DNA from: a virus
Strand: one strand, 5' to 3'
Virus record (IMG/VR): IMGVR_UViG_3300042014_000110
Span: 1 to 27,606 of that record
Length of the DNA: 27,606 bases
In this document: piece by piece, positions 4,709 through 27,325 of the stretch
Position numbering within the stretch: the first letter of the stretch is position 1
How the letters are laid out: the number at the start of each line of letters is the position of its first letter
The notes under the pieces: model-generated
The model's database searches: none
Told to the model about the DNA's origin: nothing
What the model saw: only the letters and a program-made list of their open reading frames with translations
Made by a program: the position numbers and the translations under genes

Positions 4709-5098
4709 GTGGCGGATGAGCTGCTGGAGTTGGTGAAGGCGCGTCGCGGGGAATTGGGGCTGTCGTACCAAGCACTCGCCGCGGCGTCCGTGGATGGCGA
4801 GTCGGGAACGACCGTGTCAGCCGGATGGCTCCATCGGTTGGAGACGGGCGCGCCGGTCGTCGCACCGAGCGCCGAGGTCCTGGCTGCCCTGGCGGCTGGA
4901 TTGCGGATGGAGCTGGTACGCCTGAAGGAGGCAGCTGCCGCGCAGTTCTTCGGGCTGAGCCTGCCTTGGGAGGCGTCGGGCGAGGCGGCTCAGCTGCTGG
5001 CGTTGGTGGCCGGCTTGCCGGAAGCGCAGCGGTGGGCGCTTCTGGACCTGATCAGGGTCATGGCCAAGAGCCAGCAGGACCCCCCGGAGCCCGTGTAG
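4709..5098 (+). CDS. XRE-family repressor-like protein, homologue of the phage repressor
   Basis: 129 residues from GTG 4709 with GGAGGG at 4699-4704. An N-terminal helix-turn-helix (LSYQALAAAS, then SAGWLHRLETG) is followed by AEVLAALAAGLRMELVRLKEAAAAQFFG and a helical C-terminus. The order and many residues match the minus-strand immunity repressor at 14075-14506 (SYAKMSERA, YLQRL, RAIAAALRVSDRRVKAAAADQWLG), so the two are related. It sits directly before an integrase remnant. This suggests it is a relic or captured repressor from a second, related element, which could still act on the same class of operators. That activity is inferred. Confidence 0.75.
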   Translation: MADELLELVKARRGELGLSYQALAAASVDGESGTTVSAGWLHRLETGAPVVAPSAEVLAALAAGLRMELVRLKEAAAAQFFGLSLPWEASGEAAQLLALVAGLPEAQRWALLDLIRVMAKSQQDPPEPV

Positions 5099-5536: not shown

Positions 5537-5606
5537 TTCTCGCATGTGCGGCCTCCACAGACCGGCCGTAGGCTGGTGCCGCTCGGGGCTGTCGCGGAGG
5601 TCCGCC

Positions 5607-6398
5607 ATGCCTGCCATCTGGAGCGGAGCCATCTCGTTCGGGCTCGTCACCATCCCCATCAAGGTCGTGACCGCCACCGAGAACCACTCGCTCAGCTTCC
5701 GCCAGTACCACGTCGAGGACATGGGCCGGATCCGCTACCGCAAGGTGTGCGAGCTCGACGGGCAGACCCTCACCGAAGGCGAGATCGGCAAGGCGTATGA
5801 GTGGGCGGAGGGCCGCCTCATCCCCGTGTCGGACGAGGAGCTCGCCGACATGCCGCTGCCCACGGCGAAGGCGATCGAGATCGTCGCGTTCGTGCCCGCT
5901 GAGTCGATCGACCCGATCCGGATCGGCGCCGGCTACTACCTGGCGGCGGACGGGCCGGTCGCTGCGAAGCCGTATGTGCTGCTGCGGAAGGCCCTGGAGC
6001 GGAGCAACAAGGTGGCGGTGGCGAAGTTCGCGCTGCGCGGCCGGGAGCGCCTCGGCCTGCTGCGGATCCGCGACGACGCGATCGTCCTGCACGCCATGCA
6101 CTGGGACGACGAGATCCGCGATCCGGCCGCCCTCGCCCCACCGCCTGTGGAGCTCGACGAGGAGGAGATCGAGAGGGCGCTGCTGCTCATCGACAGCACG
6201 CCCATCTACGGCCTGGAGGGCGAAGAGTTCGCCGACCGGTACACGGAGGCGCTGGAGCAGGTCATCGAGGCGAAGCGTGAGGGCCGCGACCTGCCGTCCG
6301 CGCCGGAGCCGACCGCTATGCCGGGCCAGGTGGTGGATCTGATGGCCGCGCTGGAGGAGTCGGTGGCCAAGGCCCGGACGGCCCGCGGCGGCGCTTAA
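5607..6398 (+). CDS. ku: Ku DNA end-binding protein
   Basis: 263 residues from ATG 5607, preceded by CGGAGG at 5595-5600. The earlier in-frame ATG at 5544 lacks family similarity. The start PAIWSGAISFGLVTIPIKVV and the block MGRIRYRKVCELDG are hallmarks of bacterial Ku. The beta-barrel domain runs to about residue 185, followed by a short helical arm and a C-terminus without the Lys-rich tail seen in many mycobacterial and some Streptomyces Ku proteins. Ku forms a homodimeric ring on broken DNA ends and recruits LigD for non-homologous end joining in the cytoplasm. No ligD gene lies in this window. Terminators on both sides make it a single-gene unit. Some actinophages carry ku, so either a host or a phage origin is possible. 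Confidence 0.95.
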   Translation: MPAIWSGAISFGLVTIPIKVVTATENHSLSFRQYHVEDMGRIRYRKVCELDGQTLTEGEIGKAYEWAEGRLIPVSDEELADMPLPTAKAIEIVAFVPAESIDPIRIGAGYYLAADGPVAAKPYVLLRKALERSNKVAVAKFALRGRERLGLLRIRDDAIVLHAMHWDDEIRDPAALAPPPVELDEEEIERALLLIDSTPIYGLEGEEFADRYTEALEQVIEAKREGRDLPSAPEPTAMPGQVVDLMAALEESVAKARTARGGA

Positions 6399-9489: not shown

Positions 9490-10158
9490 ATGACCTTGAA
9501 GAAGATAGATCTGACCGGGCAGCGGTTCGGCGAGCTGACCGTCATCGAAGAAGCCGAGCGGGGCGCCAACGGCCGCATCCGCTGGCTCTGCAAGTGCTCC
9601 TGTGGTGCTGACACCGTTAAGTACCCGAAGAACCTCAGGCTGGGTAGGGCCACTTCGTGCGGATGCACTGGCCGCAACGAGATCTTCAAAACGACGCACG
9701 CACAGGCGGGCACGCCCCTGTACCGGCGCTGGGCGGAAATGGTCAAGCGAACGACCAACCCGAACGGCGCGCGCTACGCCGATTACGGTGGTAGGGGCAT
9801 CACGGTTTGCCCCGAGTGGCGCCAGTCGTTCGAGGCGTTCGCCCGGGACATGGGTCCGACCTTCCAGCCGGGCTTGACTCTCGAACGCATCGACAACGAG
9901 CGCGGCTATGCCCCTGGGAACGTCAGGTGGGCAACGTACAGGGAGCAGGCCCGGAACACTCGCAGAAACCATCGAGTGCAGTTCCGTGGCCAGAACAGGA
10001 TCCTCGTCGAGTGGTGCGAGCTACTCGGCCTCAGCTACGGAGCGGTAAGGCAGCGGCTGTACCGTGGCTGGCCGACTGAGCGGGCTCTCACCACTGGCGC
10101 CGACCCGGAGGCGCTAGCCCGGCTCGTCGGTTCCGACGAGGACGGGCAGGCTGCCTGA
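9490..10158 (+). CDS. HNH/AP2-type homing-endonuclease-like DNA-binding protein
   Basis: 222 residues from ATG 9490; the ribosome-binding site GAAGGAAGG directly abuts it, so TTG 9496 is a possible real start. N-terminal region: GQRFGELTVIEE, then Cys-rich WLCKCSCG and SCGC. Middle: YRRWAEMVKRTTNP, YADYGGRGITVCPEW, LERIDNERGYAPGNVRWATYREQARN. The last block is the signature of a large group of phage proteins related to HNH homing endonucleases. A C-terminal helical part resembles a small helix-turn-helix (LVEWCELLGLSYGAVRQRL). It may nick DNA or only bind it. It stands alone in the accessory region. Confidence 0.75.
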   Translation: MTLKKIDLTGQRFGELTVIEEAERGANGRIRWLCKCSCGADTVKYPKNLRLGRATSCGCTGRNEIFKTTHAQAGTPLYRRWAEMVKRTTNPNGARYADYGGRGITVCPEWRQSFEAFARDMGPTFQPGLTLERIDNERGYAPGNVRWATYREQARNTRRNHRVQFRGQNRILVEWCELLGLSYGAVRQRLYRGWPTERALTTGADPEALARLVGSDEDGQAA

Positions 10159-17313: not shown

Positions 17314-17415
17314 CCGCCGCCCCGCCGGATGACCACCGGCCGGCGGAGGCGGCGACCAACAACCGAAGACCAGCCGCACGTGGCGACCTCCCCCTCGCGC
17401 CCGGCGGCATCCGAA

Positions 17416-17459
17416 GGGCCGCCAGCCCCGCACACCCCCCCCGTCGGGGCTGGCGGCCC
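17416..17459 (+). terminator. Hairpin terminator inside the early operon
   Basis: GGGCCGCCAGCCCC (17416-17429) and GGGGCTGGCGGCCC (17446-17459) form a perfect 14-bp stem with a 16-nt C-rich loop, followed by a short TTTT at 17475. It splits the small-gene block from the recombination and replication block. If efficient, it would need antitermination or a second promoter downstream. Confidence 0.75.
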
Positions 17460-17488
17460 GCCATCAGCACACCCTTTTGGAGCCTCAC

Positions 17489-17836
17489 ATGAGCACCAAC
17501 AGCCCCATCACCAGCGAGGTCGCGGCGCACGTCCTGTCGCACTTCGGCCGCCCCGGCGGCTACCCGGCCGGCGACTGGACCGAATCCCTCATCAGCCTCA
17601 TCGACCGCGCCGACATGACCAACCGGGCCAAGCTGACCGCCGCCTTCCCCGACTACGGGGCCGCCATCGTCCTCATGAAGTACGACTACGACGGGACCGG
17701 GCTGCCCGCGCTGCAGGCCATCGCCGCCGGGAAGCCGCTCCGCTGCACCCGCTGCCGCGGCGAGGACGGCCCGTTCACCGACGAGCAGCTGTGCGAGCCG
17801 TGCGCCCGCCCGATGCCCCTGGACGGCGTGGCGTGA
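17489..17836 (+). CDS. Zinc-ribbon-tailed early protein
   Basis: 115 residues from ATG 17489 (TGGAG upstream; the in-frame start at 17477 is weaker). The N-terminal 80 residues are mixed. The C-terminal 35 contain CTRC and CEPC with 16 residues between, a likely zinc ribbon. It lies directly upstream of the RecE-like nuclease with a GTGA overlap, so it may help DNA recombination. That link is inferred. Confidence 0.65.
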   Translation: MSTNSPITSEVAAHVLSHFGRPGGYPAGDWTESLISLIDRADMTNRAKLTAAFPDYGAAIVLMKYDYDGTGLPALQAIAAGKPLRCTRCRGEDGPFTDEQLCEPCARPMPLDGVA

Positions 17837-18660
17837 CCGCGGCGCCGGTCGAGGTCGAGCCCGGCCTCTACGACATCCCCGCCGAGCTGTACCACCAGGA
17901 CCCCATACCCGGAGGCAGCCTCTCCTCCACCGGCGCCCGCAAGCTCGTCACCGAGTGCCCCGCCAAGTTCAAGTACTGGCTCGACCACCCGCAGCCCCAC
18001 AACAAGGCCCTCGAACTCGGCACCGCCGCACACAAGCTGGTCCTCGACGACGGCCCCGAACTCGTCCTCGTCGATGCCGAGAAGTGGAACACCGACGACA
18101 TCAAGGCCGAGGTCGCCGCGATCCGCGCCGCCGGGAACATCCCGCTCAAGCGGCACCAGCTGGAGCAGGTCGAAGCTATGGCGGCCGAGCTGCGGGCCGA
18201 CGCAGACGCGGCCCGGCTGCTGGAGCCCGGCTCCGGTGTCGCCGAGCAGTCCGCGTTCTGGAACGACAAGGGTGTCTGGCGGCGGGCCCGCTTCGACTGG
18301 CTGCGCCACGACGGCCAGATCGTCGACTACAAGACCGCCCGCTCCTGCCGCCGCCAGGACCTGGAGAAGGCGTTCCACGAGCACGGCTACCCGCAGCAGC
18401 AGGAGTGGTACATCGACGCCGGCGCCGCCCTCGACGTCGCCGACCCCGAGCGGCCGTTCCAGTTCGTGCTGCAGGAGAAAGACCCGCCCTACCTGGTCGT
18501 CGTGACGACCTGCGACCCGATGGCCCGCGGCATCGGCCGCCACCTCAACGAGGTCGCCCTCAACACCTACGCCATCTGCCGCGAGCGCGGCGACTGGCCC
18601 GGATACCTCCCGAACCCGATGACCGCGCTGCCCTCGTGGGTCGAGCGCCAGTACGCCTAG
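17833..18660 (+). CDS. RecE-like PD-(D/E)XK exonuclease
   Basis: 275 residues from GTG 17833, coupled by GTGA. It begins with GLYDIPAELYHQDPIPGGSLSSTGARKL and contains LELGTAAHKLVLD. The nuclease core is RARFDWLRHDGQIVDYKTA, with Asp155 and Asp165-Tyr-Lys167 as metal and catalytic residues. This is the layout of phage RecE/Cas4-like exonucleases (DUF3799 type), about 260-300 aa. It would resect double-stranded ends to make 3' single strands. Its neighbour is a Sak4-like ATPase, which would use those strands. Confidence 0.9.
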   Translation: MTAAPVEVEPGLYDIPAELYHQDPIPGGSLSSTGARKLVTECPAKFKYWLDHPQPHNKALELGTAAHKLVLDDGPELVLVDAEKWNTDDIKAEVAAIRAAGNIPLKRHQLEQVEAMAAELRADADAARLLEPGSGVAEQSAFWNDKGVWRRARFDWLRHDGQIVDYKTARSCRRQDLEKAFHEHGYPQQQEWYIDAGAALDVADPERPFQFVLQEKDPPYLVVVTTCDPMARGIGRHLNEVALNTYAICRERGDWPGYLPNPMTALPSWVERQYA

Positions 18661-19885: not shown

Positions 19886-20085
19886 CCGACATCGTCCTCA
19901 TCCTGCTCGCCTGCCTGGCCTTCGGCATCGCGGCCGTGCTCGTCGCGGTCGTCGGCGCCGCCCGGGTCCGCCGCCACTACCGCAACCGCCACGGCATCCA
20001 ACGCCTGGAGTCCTACGCCAACCACCCCGGCGCCCGACGACTCCTCGACGACATCCACAACCAGCCCCGAGAGGAGGAACTGTGA
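19882..20085 (+). CDS. Small single-span membrane protein
   Basis: 67 residues from GTG 19882, coupled by GTGA. Residues about 3-27 form one hydrophobic membrane helix (IVLILLACLAFGIAAVLVAV), followed by a basic cytoplasmic part (RVRRHYRNRH). A positive-inside arrangement fits an N-out topology. Small membrane proteins in phage early operons sometimes act in superinfection exclusion; here that is speculation. Confidence 0.65.
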   Translation: MTDIVLILLACLAFGIAAVLVAVVGAARVRRHYRNRHGIQRLESYANHPGARRLLDDIHNQPREEEL

Positions 20086-20900
20086 CCACCAACCGCCAGC
20101 CGCCCCACCACGAAAACACCGTGTGCGTGCAGTGGTACTCCTGCCGACTCCCCTCGTGCCGGGACCGGTTCTACGCCCGCCGCCGCGCCATCCGTGCTGG
20201 CCTCATCCAACCCGCCCGCATCCTCGTCGACGCCGCACCCGTCCGGCAGCACATCCTCGACTTGCAGGAAGCCGGACTCAGCATCTCCTGCATCGCCCGT
20301 CAGGCGGGACTCGCCCACACCACCGTCGGCAACTTCCTCCGACCCCGCCCGTCCGCCAGGCGGGGACTCCAGCGGCAGACCACACCCGAAACCGCCGCGA
20401 AGATCCTCGCAGTACGGCCGGTCACGACGATCGGCACGATGCGCCGCATCCAGGCCCTCATCGCCATCGGCTGGCCCGCCCGCAAGATCGCCGCACACGC
20501 GGGCGTCTCGAACCGGTGGCTCTTCGACCTCCGGCCCGACACGGTCATCCACGCCACCTACGCCGAAAAGATCATCACGGCATACGGCGAACTCCGCCAC
20601 CGCAAACCGGAGAAGCACGGCGTCCACGCCGGCCACGCCCGACGCTCCCGCGAACGCGCCAAGACCAACCGCTGGCCCACCCCCCGCTACTGGGACCAGC
20701 ACGCCGACGACATCGACGACCCCCACTTCGAGCCGCTCTACCGCGTGACTCGCAGGGAAATCGTCGCCCAAGACGCCCACTGGCTCATGCGCTCCGGCCT
20801 CGACAAGAACGCCGCCGCCCAGCGCCTCGGAGTCGACAAGTCATACATCGAACACGCCTTCCGAGAGCACCCCCAATACGCCATGGAGACAGCCGCATGA
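20082..20900 (+). CDS. Multi-HTH DNA-binding protein
   Basis: 272 residues from GTG 20082, coupled by GTGA. The N-terminus has Cys residues (CVQWYSCRLPSC). Three helix-turn-helix-like segments are visible: GLSISCIARQAGLAHTTVGNF, IGWPARKIAAHAGVSNRWLF and GLDKNAAAQRLGVDKSYIEHAF. Proteins of this layout are common in actinophages, where they are called HTH DNA-binding proteins. Its position before the methyltransferase locus suggests regulation or replication. The stop overlaps the following fragment (ATGA). Confidence 0.75.
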   Translation: MTTNRQPPHHENTVCVQWYSCRLPSCRDRFYARRRAIRAGLIQPARILVDAAPVRQHILDLQEAGLSISCIARQAGLAHTTVGNFLRPRPSARRGLQRQTTPETAAKILAVRPVTTIGTMRRIQALIAIGWPARKIAAHAGVSNRWLFDLRPDTVIHATYAEKIITAYGELRHRKPEKHGVHAGHARRSRERAKTNRWPTPRYWDQHADDIDDPHFEPLYRVTRREIVAQDAHWLMRSGLDKNAAAQRLGVDKSYIEHAFREHPQYAMETAA

Positions 20901-20989
20901 GCTACCGCAACGACAACGACGCCCTCACGGTCATGGACTGGTTCTGCGGCGCCGGCGGCTCCAGCCGGAGGCTGGGGGTGGCCTCGTGA
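20897..20989 (+). pseudogene. N-terminal fragment of a C5 DNA methyltransferase (motif I only)
   Basis: ATG 20897 (overlapping the previous stop) to TGA 20987-20989 gives 30 residues. They contain TVMDWFCGAGGSS, the SAM-binding motif I of a cytosine-C5 methyltransferase. The frame ends 7 residues later (RRLGVAS), overlapping the start of a complete methyltransferase. It is the start of an older gene whose motif X tail lies at about 22437-22574. It may still be translated as a short peptide. Confidence 0.75.
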
Positions 20990-22017
20990 TCACCGAACTG
21001 TTCCGGGGCCCGGGCGGCTGGGCTGAGGGCCTGCGCCTCCTCGGACTGTCCGACATCGGCCTGGAGTGGGACACCGCTGCCTGTCGCACCGCGCGCGCCG
21101 CCGGGCATCTCACCGTGCAGACCGACGTCGCCGCCTACCCCACCGCCCCGTTCGCCGACCGGACCGCCGGACTGATCGCCTCCCCGCCGTGCCAGGCGTG
21201 GTCTCGGGCTGGGAACCGCGGCGGCCTCCACGATCAGCCTCTTGTCCATCAAGCCGTCAGCGACCTCGCCGTCGGCCGGGACACCCGCGCCGAACTCCTC
21301 GCCCGGTGTCGGGACGCCCGATCCCTGCTCGCCGCGGAGCCGATGCGCTGGCTGTACGACCTGCGCCCCGAGTGGGTGTGCCTGGAGGAAGTCCCCGACG
21401 TCCTGCCGCTGTTCCAGCAGATCGCCGCCGTGCTCCGTCGGTGGGGCTACAGCGTGTGGACAGGTGTAGTCAACGCCGCCGACTACGGAGTACCGCAGAC
21501 CCGTCGCCGCGCAATCCTCATCGCCTCCCGGACCCAGCCAGTGACCGCACCGACGCCGACGCACAGCGAGCACGGCGCCACAGGCCTCTTCGGCGACGAT
21601 CTGCCCCGCTGGATAACGATGGCCGAGGCTCTCGGCTGGGGCTACACCGATCGGCCCGCACCCACCGTCACCGGCGGCGGCACCGCCACCGGCGGGCCTG
21701 AACCGTTCGGCAACGCCACCCGGCGGGCCATGCGCGCGGCGATGGCCGACCGGAAGCACTGGGCCTGGCGCAAGCCGGCGCCGACCGTATCTGGCACTGT
21801 CGGTCACGTCGGTGGCAAGCAGGCCGGTGGCCACCTAAACCTGTCGCCCGAGGAGGGCGCCCGTCTTCAGACCTTCCGCCCGGGCTACCCGTTCCACGGC
21901 AACAAGGGCCAGGTCTCCCTTCAGGTCGGCAACGCCGTCCCGCCGCTCCTCGCCGCGCATGTCGTGGCCGCCGCCACCGGTGTCCCGCTGATCGCCGACT
22001 TGGAGGTGGCGGCGTGA
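20986..22017 (+). CDS. DNA (cytosine-5-)-methyltransferase
   Basis: 343 residues from GTG 20986, overlapping the upstream fragment by 4 nt. Motifs in order: I, ELFRGPGGWAEGL; IV, PPCQAWSRAG with catalytic Cys69; VI, LEEVP (Glu134/135, a variant of ENV); VIII, QTRRRA (171-176); X, GNAVPP (from about 315). The target-recognition region lies between VIII and X. It would methylate cytosine C5 in a specific duplex site, probably to protect phage DNA from host restriction. It has its own intact motif I, so it does not need the fragment before it. It is convergent with an EndoVII-family gene 14 nt away. Confidence 0.92.
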   Translation: MITELFRGPGGWAEGLRLLGLSDIGLEWDTAACRTARAAGHLTVQTDVAAYPTAPFADRTAGLIASPPCQAWSRAGNRGGLHDQPLVHQAVSDLAVGRDTRAELLARCRDARSLLAAEPMRWLYDLRPEWVCLEEVPDVLPLFQQIAAVLRRWGYSVWTGVVNAADYGVPQTRRRAILIASRTQPVTAPTPTHSEHGATGLFGDDLPRWITMAEALGWGYTDRPAPTVTGGGTATGGPEPFGNATRRAMRAAMADRKHWAWRKPAPTVSGTVGHVGGKQAGGHLNLSPEEGARLQTFRPGYPFHGNKGQVSLQVGNAVPPLLAAHVVAAATGVPLIADLEVAA

Positions 22018-22031
22018 CCAGCGTCCTCGGA

Positions 22032-22424
22032 TCAGGCTTCCGCAGGAGTGGCGTATCGCTCCAGGTACTCGGCCGCTGCCCGGAGTCGAGCAGGGTCGTC
22101 ACTGAACAGCCCGAGGCCGGCGTTGCAGCCGCTGCAGAGCACGCCGCGTATCACACCGGTGCGATGGCAGTGGTCGATCGACGGTCGACGGATACGGCCC
22201 GAGCGTGTGACGGTCTCGGTCGATCCGCAGATCGCGCAATGCGGGAACGTGAGCCCCAAAGCTTCCCGGCGCTTCTCTTCCGCCTGGTCGTGCCGAGCCC
22301 GGCGTCCGAGCGCGAAGCAGCTGCGGCAGAGCGAGCGGAACGTGGACGAGTCCGAACGCCGGTAGCCGTTCTCGTCGGTGAGGACGACATCACATCGGGC
22401 ACAGTTCGTGCGTGCAATTCTCAT
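22032..22424 (-). CDS. Recombination endonuclease VII-like HNH-family nuclease
   Basis: 130 residues from ATG 22424 to TGA at 22032. Cys8, Cys11, Cys33, Cys36 form one zinc site. Cys63, Cys66, the IDHCHRTG block (Asp84, His85, His87) and LCSGCNAGLG (Cys97, Cys100, Asn101) give the EndoVII core, with a Cys where DHDH is usual. A TAGAAT -10 box on the minus strand sits 8 nt before the ATG, suggesting leaderless expression. It is the only minus-strand gene in the early region. Free-standing homing nuclease or restriction partner of the adjacent methyltransferase are both possible. Confidence 0.88.
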   Translation of the reverse strand: MRIARTNCARCDVVLTDENGYRRSDSSTFRSLCRSCFALGRRARHDQAEEKRREALGLTFPHCAICGSTETVTRSGRIRRPSIDHCHRTGVIRGVLCSGCNAGLGLFSDDPARLRAAAEYLERYATPAEA

Positions 22425-22436
22425 TGCCCGATTCTA

Positions 22437-22574
22437 CCTGCACAGAACGGAAGTTCGGGCGGCAACGCGGTCACCCCGAACTGCGCCGAGGTCATCGTCT
22501 CCGCGCTCGTCGAGGCGATCACCGGCGAGGACATCGAACGGCACGCCGCGCCCGAGCTGGCAGCCGCCGCGTGA
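22437..22574 (+). pseudogene. C-terminal fragment (motif X) of a C5 DNA methyltransferase
   Basis: The frame ending at TGA 22572-22574 contains GGNAVTPNCAEVIVSALVEAI, then TGEDIERHAAPELAAAA. GNAVTP is motif X of cytosine-C5 methyltransferases, and the following helix is the usual C-terminus. None of motifs IV-VIII lies in this frame upstream. With the motif I peptide at 20897-20989 it marks the two ends of a resident methyltransferase. The frame is open back to GTG 22014, running antisense to the nuclease gene, so a 186-residue product is formally possible. Confidence 0.75.
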
Positions 22575-22661
22575 CCGGGGTGTGCCGGCCGCGCGCCGGA
22601 CCCTGACCGGCCGACACCGCAGCTCCCCATCCATCCGTAGCGTTCGAAAGAAGACCACCCA

Positions 22662-23513
22662 ATGGCACGGATCCGCTCGATCAAGCCGGAGTTCTTCACC
22701 TCCCTGACGATCGCCGAGCAGCCGTTGTCCGCGCGCCTCACCTTCATCGGCCTGTGGACCTACGTCGACGACAACGGCGTCGGCATGGCGGACCCGCGTC
22801 TCATCCGGGCCGCAATCTGGCCCCTCGAAGAGGCTCCGGACATCCTCCAGAGGACTCGCGAGGATCTCCAGAGCCTTCAGGAAGTCCGCCTCATCACCCT
22901 GTACGAAGCCTCCGGACGGCCTCTCGTGTACGTCAACAGCTGGAACGAGCACCAGAAAGTCAGCCACCCCCGGAAGTCGCGATTCCCCACCCCGATCGAG
23001 GTCCCGCAAAGCGCTGACCTGGACTCTTACCACCCTCCGGAGGATTACCAGAGTCCTCCGGAGAACCTCCAGAGCCCTCCGGAGGATGACGCCCCTGAGC
23101 AGGGAGCAGGGAGCAGGGAGCAGGGAAAAGGAATAGAGGGAAATCCGGAGCCTCCGGCATCCGGCGAAACCTCCCCCCGCCCCGACGTCGAACGCGTCTG
23201 CCAGCACCTGGCCGCCGTCATTGAAAAGGGCGGCACCAAGAAGCCGCGGATCACCAAGACGTGGCGCAACGACGTCCGGCTGCTGCTCGACGTCGACGAG
23301 GTCACCACCGACCAAGCCGTCGCTGCCATCGACTGGGCGCACGCCGACGACTTCTGGCAGGCGCACATCCTCAGCCCGGGAAAGCTCCGGGCCAAGTACG
23401 AAACCCTCCGCCGCCAGGCCATCGCCCAGCAGCGCAAGCGCGCACCCCAGGGCCCCGCCACCGCACCCCGCGAAATGACCGAAGAGGAGATCAGCGATGC
23501 CCTCAAGTTCTGA
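22662..23513 (+). CDS. Phage replication initiator-like protein
   Basis: 283 residues from ATG 22662. The start (RIRSIKPEFFTSLTIAEQPL, then ARLTFIGLWTYVDDNGVGM) is typical of actinophage replication-organiser proteins with an N-terminal winged-helix fold. The middle is low-complexity and carries two kinds of tandem repeat (23033-23124). The C-terminal part (about 165-260) is helical and may contact the helicase loader. It is immediately upstream of DnaC-like and DnaB genes, as lambda O precedes P. The initiator role is inferred from layout. Confidence 0.8.
   Translation: MARIRSIKPEFFTSLTIAEQPLSARLTFIGLWTYVDDNGVGMADPRLIRAAIWPLEEAPDILQRTREDLQSLQEVRLITLYEASGRPLVYVNSWNEHQKVSHPRKSRFPTPIEVPQSADLDSYHPPEDYQSPPENLQSPPEDDAPEQGAGSREQGKGIEGNPEPPASGETSPRPDVERVCQHLAAVIEKGGTKKPRITKTWRNDVRLLLDVDEVTTDQAVAAIDWAHADDFWQAHILSPGKLRAKYETLRRQAIAQQRKRAPQGPATAPREMTEEEISDALKF
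23033..23124. repeat. Iteron-like repeats inside the initiator gene, candidate origin
   Basis: A 21-bp unit starting (C/T)CCTCCGGAG occurs at 23033, 23054 and 23075, giving PPEDYQS, PPENLQS, PPEDDAP in the protein. CCTCCGGAGG is itself a palindrome. Four exact copies of GAGCAGG follow head to tail at 23097-23124, then a short A/G-rich stretch (AAAAGGAATAGAGG). Iterons inside an initiator gene are the lambda-type origin arrangement. Confidence 0.65.
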
Positions 23514-26560: not shown

Positions 26561-27325
26561 GTGAAAGTCCCCGCCACCGTCCTCGAAGTCCTCGACCGCG
26601 CCCTCACCGACGGCAACCGCCTCACCCTCACCGGCACCCTGGACCGGAAGCTGTACCAGGACACCGCGAAGGTCCTGGAAGCCGCGGGCGGCAAATGGAA
26701 CCGCCGGGCGAAGGCGCACCTGTTCGACGGCGACGCCGCCGACGCCATCGAAACCCTGATCCTCACCGGCGAGATCACCAGCAGGCGGCAGCAGTTCGGC
26801 TACTTCCCCACCCCCGCCCCGATCGTCCAGCAGCTTCTCACCCTGGCCCGGATCGAGCCCGGCATGCGCGTCCTGGAGCCGTCCGCCGGCCACGGAGCCA
26901 TCGCTCTGGCCGGCGCTGACGCCGGGGCGCTGGTGGACTGCGTGGAGATCCAGCCCGACCATGCCGAGAAGATCCGCGACGCCCACCACCCCGACGTCAC
27001 CGTCCTGGTCGCGGACTTCCTGACCACCAGCCCGCAGCCCGTGTACGACCGGGTGGTGATGAACCCGCCGTTCGCCCGGCAGGCCGACATCGCCCACGTC
27101 GAGCACGCGTACACGGCTTTGCGGCCGGGCGGTCTGCTGGCCGCGGTGATGTCGGCCGGGGTGACGTTCCGGCAGACGGCTGCCGCGGTCGCGTTCCGGG
27201 CGCGGGTCGAGTCGCTCGGCGGCACGCTGCATCCGCTGCCGGAAGGTGCGTTCCGCGAGTCGGGGACGGGCGTGAACACGGTCATAGCCGTGCTGCCGAA
27301 GCCCGCCGCCTCGTCTGCCGTGTAG
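26561..27325 (+). CDS. N6-adenine-type DNA methyltransferase
   Basis: 254 residues from GTG 26561. An N-terminal part (about 1-75) has KVLEAAGGKWNRRAKAHLF, a small domain often fused to phage methylases. The SAM domain has motif I VLEPSAGHGAIAL (104-116), an acidic VEIQPDHA, motif IV MNPPFAR (167-173) and a C-terminal GGTLHPLPEGAF. NPPF is typical of N6-adenine methyltransferases acting on DNA, or less often other amino groups. It would protect phage DNA from host restriction. It precedes a second amino-methyltransferase. Confidence 0.88.
   Translation: MKVPATVLEVLDRALTDGNRLTLTGTLDRKLYQDTAKVLEAAGGKWNRRAKAHLFDGDAADAIETLILTGEITSRRQQFGYFPTPAPIVQQLLTLARIEPGMRVLEPSAGHGAIALAGADAGALVDCVEIQPDHAEKIRDAHHPDVTVLVADFLTTSPQPVYDRVVMNPPFARQADIAHVEHAYTALRPGGLLAAVMSAGVTFRQTAAAVAFRARVESLGGTLHPLPEGAFRESGTGVNTVIAVLPKPAASSAV

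Follow-up and report, generated by a model that had tools for sequence, protein, structure and literature searches.

A candidate EndoVII-family homing endonuclease within the remains of an actinophage C5 methyltransferase gene, beside an exchangeable second methyltransferase

This analysis concerns a locus in a Streptomyces-type phage, known from a 27.6 kb fragment in the IMG/VR collection (virus record IMGVR_UViG_3300042014_000110, positions 1 to 27,606; 'the window' here always means this whole stretch of 27,606 nucleotides), in which a C5 cytosine methyltransferase gene persists only as its two ends, with a complete but different methyltransferase and a small minus-strand nuclease of the EndoVII family lying between them. 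We call the broken resident gene MTase1 and the methyltransferase that replaces its middle MTase2. From the sequences compared, we think that an EndoVII-family homing endonuclease has probably invaded MTase1 at the codons of motif X, with the adjacent methyltransferase slot exchanged as variable cargo, and we would put the chance of this being right at roughly two in three. A good deal of it can be observed directly: the remnants are the ends of one gene, their junctions are defined, the same nuclease recurs at the same codon in three replicons that are unrelated or only distantly related, insert and flanks are discordant in their affinities, MTase2 is exchanged from copy to copy, and one carrier of the nuclease has no C5 methyltransferase. 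Homing by the EndoVII nuclease is what we infer.

A preliminary description, made from the letters of the window, had picked out a frame with motif I, a C5 methyltransferase, a minus-strand EndoVII gene and a frame with GNAVTP, and all four are present as it claimed, with clear family matches for the two enzymes (Table 1). It had also proposed that the outer frames are pieces of one methyltransferase, and uninterrupted relatives do indeed contain both of them, joined at a single point. In all, 74 viral contigs matched a DNA pattern for MDWFCGAGGSS, and those with the whole gene encode a single family of C5 methyltransferases, MTase1, of ~440-604 amino acids, starting MxYRNDNDALTVMDWFCGAGGSSQG and ending RQYGNAVTPNCAEVIVSALVEAITGEDIER; intact members are known in dozens of related viruses and plasmids. 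When the window locus was compared by blastn with S. anulatus plasmids, both fragments landed on the ends of one annotated DNA cytosine methyltransferase gene. Against intact alleles the N-terminal fragment is 96% identical over 75 nucleotides (nt; E 3e-29) and the C-terminal fragment 89% over 157 nt (E 7e-54), and these matches fall in different loci, each time at the corresponding end of one gene. Such a match is far beyond chance, and a single actinophage C5 methyltransferase accounts for both fragments as its two ends. The frame of the C-terminal stub, GGNAVTPNCAEVIVSALVEAITGEDIERHAAPELAAAA and a stop, terminates at 22574 on the plus strand, its 115 bases of coding-type sequence reading GNAVTPNCAEVIVSALVEAITGEDIERHAAPELAAAA plus stop, and from 22460 to 22616 the DNA is 89.2% identical to one intact allele (L101). 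MTase1 is, moreover, the resident gene of this slot, since in many viral contigs an intact MTase1 has a homologue of the upstream helix-turn-helix (HTH) gene directly 5' of it (by tblastn synteny in L032, L039, L099, L104 and others). Named phages gave no match to a tblastn search with the C-terminal fragment alone, and the intact family was reached through DNA patterns in viral contigs and through plasmids. The methylases of phages ShiLan, Dorothy and Taj were considered as the MTase1 family and set aside, ShiLan_65, Dorothy_75 and Taj_79 giving no blastp match to MTase1.

The intact alleles also fix where the resident gene breaks off. The right junction, first placed near 22440, is at 22459/22460, and the left, first placed near 20965, is corrected to 20966/20967; the idea of a displaced middle of about 1.5 kb stands, the replaced stretch running from 20967 to 22459 (1,493 bp) and standing for ~540 MTase1 residues. 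The window has no complete functional MTase1, residues ~24-564 of ~600 being gone, motifs IV-VIII among them. At the right junction the upstream sequence of EndoVII is joined to GGCAACGC, and the junction falls in the same codon in the two other interrupted copies described below, L030 (at 7710) and L112 (at 1923). Left junctions, in contrast, vary, lying 49, 53, ~60, 70 and 112 nt into MTase1, and a fixed right junction with varying left ones is what would be expected if EndoVII were the positioned element. Across 55 intact genes, 24-nt stretches at motif I and at the insertion site lie at the 99.7th percentile of the gene's DNA conservation; such DNA would furnish both good nuclease targets and good recombination arms.

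Table 1. Features of the locus and its surroundings, in window coordinates
Feature	Position	Strand	Details
RecE/exonuclease VIII-like gene	17329..18660	+	phrog_412 2.5e-77
HTH gene upstream of N-terminal stub	20082..20900	+	phrog_1590 1e-37
MTase1 N-terminal stub, 30 amino acids	20897..20989	+	Motif I MDWFCGAGGSS; MSYRNDNDALTVMDWFCGAGGSSRRLGVAS and stop; match to intact alleles stops at 20966
Left junction	20966..20967	.	Commonest homology end to intact alleles, 52/107 matches
MTase2, complete C5 cytosine methyltransferase, 343 amino acids	20986..22017	+	PF00145 E 2.7e-30
EndoVII-family nuclease, 130 amino acids	22032..22424	-	PF02945 9.1e-18; phrog_2633 4e-25
EndoVII upstream region	22425..22459	-	TAGAAT, -10-like hexamer, minus strand
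Right junction, codon preceding GNAV of motif X	22459..22460	.	66/80 matches begin at 22460
MTase1 C-terminal stub	22460..22574	+	Motif X GNAVTP and C-terminal helix; out of original reading context
Intergenic stretch matching DNA 3' of intact MTase1 in L101	22575..22616	.	
Replication initiation gene, downstream resident	22662..23513	+	phrog_2149 2.3e-59

The nuclease keeps the full EndoVII catalytic set (CAIC at residue 63, DHCH at 84, R93 and CSGCN at 97), in keeping with its membership of PF02945, and its N-terminus has zinc-finger-like cysteines (CARC/CRSC). In the published tree of EndoVII-motif proteins, a C-terminal motif belongs to the clade of homing and restriction endonucleases, F-CphI included, and an N-terminal one to resolvases (PMC6083498); here the motif occupies residues 63-101 of 130, a position like that seen in the endonuclease clade. 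Between copies of the gene, codon positions 1 and 2 are 92-96% identical and position 3 only 66-75%, so EndoVII has evidently been under purifying selection. The 28 nt TCTCATTGCCCGATTCTACCTGCACAGA (22419-22446), at and upstream of the EndoVII start, are identical in all three known copies of a module that as a whole is only 84-87% identical, and on the minus strand the hexamer TAGAAT, shortly ahead of the start codon, suggests a leaderless promoter carried by the module. An exact search of viral contigs for this conserved upstream sequence gave no match, and the EndoVII relatives found in viral contigs beyond the window are distant, with none at MTase1. The closest relative in a named phage, at 47%, belongs to Arthrobacter phage MidnightRain (L251, 931-2950, gp84-gp85), where it too lies directly 3' of a DNA methyltransferase gene, one of another family that ends GNGVVP. 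Further relatives, in Mycobacterium phage CloudWang3 (gp63/gp65, L253) and Escherichia phage E26 (L255), adjoin genes for DNA primase and a gyrB-like topoisomerase, which are typical neighbours of free-standing homing nucleases.

Opposite the nuclease, a plus-strand frame of 186 amino acids (22014-22574), preceded by GGAGGTGG, runs in frame into the C-terminal stub; it is open in the window and in L112 and has an in-frame stop in L030. We considered it as a fusion read through into MTase1, in the style of the ShiLan domain, and rejected it as an antisense by-product: because the frame upstream of 22460 is EndoVII antisense and is stopped in L030, only 22460-22574 is MTase1.

MTase2 has the C5 motifs I, IV, VIII and X in order (LFRGPGG, SPPCQ, QTRRR and GNAVPP at residues 5, 66, 171 and 315), as a member of PF00145 should, and belongs to a family different from MTase1. 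The start of the 30-residue stub overlaps the stop of the HTH gene (ATGA), and the stub's stop overlaps the start of MTase2 (GTGA). There is a short repeat between the stub tail, GGCTGGGGGTGGCC.CGTGA, and the MTase2 tail, TTGGAGGTGGCGGCGTGA. Because this repeat can also be taken for a Shine-Dalgarno-like sequence where genes overlap at their ends, we make no claim for it as a mediator of MTase2 loss in L112. Across copies it is MTase2 that changes: the nearest relative of the window's MTase2 is in L020 (79% amino acid identity) and that of the L030 MTase2 in L013 (83%), the L030 protein ranks only 24th for the window's, and the target-recognition regions (TRDs) of the two differ, even though their nucleases are 88% identical.

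The loci found elsewhere make up a series of occupied, half-occupied and empty alleles. In cultured S. olivoverticillatus CECT 3266 (L030), a 42-residue MTase1 N-terminal stub, its motif I mutated to GAGRSS, is followed by MTase2, EndoVII (88% amino acid identity) and a C-terminal stub. On a 90 kb contig of another Streptomyces genome, G345 (L112/L171), the N-terminal stub MTYRHDDELTLMDWFCG and the C-terminal stub enclose EndoVII alone (90%), and the slot comes after a Rad52-type gene, just as it does in phage-plasmids that bear MTase1 (L246, for example). Searched as a whole, the G345 genome gave no PF00145 match, where 10 of 14 control genomes were positive, and no match to MTase2. Two phages, L007 and L008, have an N-terminal stub (4927-5004 and 4930-5004, respectively) and then MTase2, with neither EndoVII nor a C-terminal stub; in L008, what follows the MTase2 stop is similar to the DNA 3' of intact MTase1 (80.6% over 134 nt). 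Phage ZL12 and plasmid pSAM1 have tandem MTase2-like genes and no stubs. The contents seen in the slot are thus intact MTase1; MTase2; stub and MTase2; stub, MTase2, EndoVII and C-terminal stub; and stub, EndoVII and C-terminal stub.

Within this series the nuclease module does not follow its surroundings. Across the window, L030 and L112 it is 84-87% identical in DNA and 88-90% in protein, and yet in a blastp comparison of the window with G345 the region of EndoVII and the MTase1 end is the sole part shared, while the neighbours that the window and L030 have in common are only moderately similar. The C-terminal flank of the window is 93.8% identical to several intact alleles, whereas its identity to the two other interrupted copies is 82.7% and 79.0%, placing them 28th and 42nd among 65; the C-terminal flanks of L030 and L112 are equally discordant with the insert, and the N-terminal stubs largely so. 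Such a patchy distribution, at a single site in divergent hosts and at odds with the flanks, is a feature of EndoVII-motif homing endonucleases. Because the flanks of the interrupted copies match different intact alleles better than they match each other, the alignments indicate that the nuclease module has moved horizontally, every time to the motif X site of MTase1.

How might this come about? In the reading that we favour, EndoVII would cut an uninterrupted MTase1 near the conserved motif X sequence, and an occupied copy would serve as template for repair of the break, the conserved MTase1 ends acting as short homology arms, without the help of an intron. The insertion would destroy the cut site, so that a carrier is protected, and the methyltransferase beside the nuclease would be co-converted, swapping the methylation specificity of the phage; the 30-amino acid stub may persist as a translational bridge, by way of its overlaps, from the upstream gene to MTase2. 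The preliminary description had suggested homing between methyltransferase alleles by a single cassette. Homing remains plausible, in a refined form in which the EndoVII module is what recurs at the site and MTase2 differs between copies, and single-step entry of one fixed cassette is probably not what happened, because EndoVII occurs once without a methyltransferase (G345), MTase2 varies, and two phages have stub and MTase2 without EndoVII. On the evidence of the three EndoVII copies, either EndoVII or MTase2 may have come first. We would also venture, as a more tentative idea than homing itself, that the locus is a methylation-swap homing element, with EndoVII anchored at motif X of MTase1, the ends of the target gene kept as homology arms and the methyltransferase exchangeable, such that each invasion would delete the rival's methylation specificity and install a new one.

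Several findings weigh against homing as the explanation. The divergence of the EndoVII module at silent sites is about that of the flanks, so its spread is not recent. A scan for a sigma-70-type promoter in front of EndoVII found none. The case for active homing rests on few events, there being only three copies of EndoVII, with 2 of 393 sampled Streptomyces genomes carrying it. Finally, the stub with MTase2 and no EndoVII in L007 and L008 means that a methyltransferase can be replaced, or the replacement can last, where the nuclease is absent, which leaves room for ordinary recombination at the slot.

That last point leads to the strongest competitor, ordinary phage mosaicism, in which the conserved motifs I and X would make the slot a recombination hotspot, RecE/RecT-type recombination would swap modules there, and EndoVII would be a passenger with another role, for example as a resolvase. 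Besides the two phages just mentioned, it can draw on phage-plasmids whose same slot contains intact MTase1 or tandem MTase2, on the placing of the junctions in the gene's most conserved DNA, and on the RecE-like exonuclease that the phage itself encodes. What it does not readily explain is why the right junction should stay at one codon in three replicons that are unrelated or distantly related, when the left junctions vary, or why EndoVII should be the most constant part of the insert and once its sole content; nor is the C-terminal EndoVII motif that of the resolvase clade. We regard mosaicism on its own as unlikely, if still deserving of serious attention.

Much less probable is a type II restriction-modification pair of MTase2 and EndoVII, resembling Hpy99I and inserted as a selfish cassette. 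It is true that, among solved structures, the restriction enzyme Hpy99I (3fc3, E 3.5e-8) comes closest to EndoVII, that the PADLOC model REase_II matches the window nuclease (2.7e-9), that the two genes are adjacent and convergent, and that Hpy99I-like genes often adjoin methylases (PMC6083498). A restriction enzyme of this kind should, however, have a constant partner, and G345 has an intact nuclease (90% amino acid identity) and no C5 methyltransferase, just as the MTase2 proteins beside 88%-identical nucleases differ in TRDs and closest relatives. Nearly all relatives of MTase2 are, in addition, without this nuclease: an MTase2-like protein (E <= 1e-60) occurs in 95 of the 393 genomes and the nuclease, at 88-90% identity, in 2. 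Given these counts, MTase2 normally appears to live alone and is not the nuclease's guardian.

Could the ends of MTase1 still be functional, as a split or trans-acting methyltransferase or as parts brought together by a spliced intervening sequence? The high identity that both window stubs retain to intact alleles is in favour, but ~540 residues including motifs IV-VIII are lost, the C-terminal stub lacks its own start and is preceded by the antisense frame that a stop interrupts in L030, motif I of the L030 stub is mutated, and there is no sign of a self-splicing intron or intein, with no Rfam intron match, a host gene ~540 residues short and a stub that ends in a stop codon; we find the idea very improbable. 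Scarcely credible is an assembly chimera of two methyltransferase loci, which the fragmentary nature of this metagenomic record might have raised, for it is refuted by independent recurrence: cultured S. olivoverticillatus CECT 3266 has the same architecture and G345 a related one, and both share the right junction.

Other genes of the window include those for an integrase, the RecE-like exonuclease, a DnaC-like loader and a DnaB-like helicase. The RecE-like gene could supply the recombination on which short homology arms would depend. A Ku-like DNA end-binding protein is encoded at 5544-6398 on the plus strand (phrog_4873, E 5e-66) and could have a bearing on the repair of nuclease-made breaks. 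There is also an HNH endonuclease gene (9490-10158, plus strand; phrog_374, 3e-64), and close to the end of the window a plus-strand frame at 26561-27325, apparently a portion of a larger gene, encodes a protein resembling parts of very large methyltransferase/DarB-like antirestriction proteins (phrog_9133, phrog_15406).

If the reading is right, homing would bear on how phage DNA modification changes and, through that, on the hosts in which a phage can survive. The set of occupied, half-occupied and empty alleles, with junctions defined to a single codon, offers a test of whether selfish nucleases drive the turnover of anti-restriction methyltransferases in phages, and EndoVII-type homing endonucleases, known experimentally from one cyanophage protein (PMC6083498), would be extended to actinophages and phage-plasmids.

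Among known systems, the nearest in kind is F-CphI of cyanophage S-PM2, the founder of the EndoVII-motif (DHHRN) family of homing endonucleases and likewise a small phage nuclease with an N-terminal extension and a C-terminal CxxC...DHxH...R...CxxC-N motif, placed at a conserved target gene thought to be cut in unoccupied relatives (PMC6083498). F-CphI, however, adjoins an intron-interrupted psbA and cooperates with the intron, whereas the window nuclease, its activity predicted, sits, on the opposite strand, inside what is left of its destroyed target gene, and no intron is present. Actinophage DNA methylases are already known to contain a hidden HNH insertion, the ShiLan domain, which spreads horizontally among divergent alleles and phages, and a lone LAGLIDADG insertion (PMC11855218, PMC9957025); these too are homing-nuclease genes at conserved sites of phage methylases, but they belong to other nuclease families, lie in a methylase family other than MTase1 and are read in frame with a methylase that remains whole, while in the window a second methylase has taken the place of the lost methylase body. 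The proposed mechanism is closest to that of the free-standing seg and mob endonucleases of T4, in which intronless homing proceeds with co-conversion: a rival allele is cut, repair copies the nuclease and adjoining DNA, and the rival's markers are replaced (PMC2988022). The nuclease family differs from theirs, and the insertion lies within rather than beside the target gene. Hpy99I (PDB 3fc3), the closest solved relative by sequence, is likewise a beta-beta-alpha-Me/EndoVII-type nuclease with a place next to a C5 methyltransferase, but the window-type nuclease is shorter, its methyltransferase partner is not conserved and one carrier genome is without a C5 methyltransferase. In Streptomyces phage ZL12 and plasmid pSAM1 a comparable slot, following a recombinase-type gene, contains MTase2-like genes, but neither MTase1 stubs nor EndoVII. 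We met no account, in the open-access literature, of a C5 methylase gutted at motif X by an EndoVII element with an interchangeable replacement methylase beside it, which is weak evidence of absence. EndoVII-type homing endonucleases and nuclease insertions in phage methylases were each known already; what is new is the arrangement in which the window brings them together.

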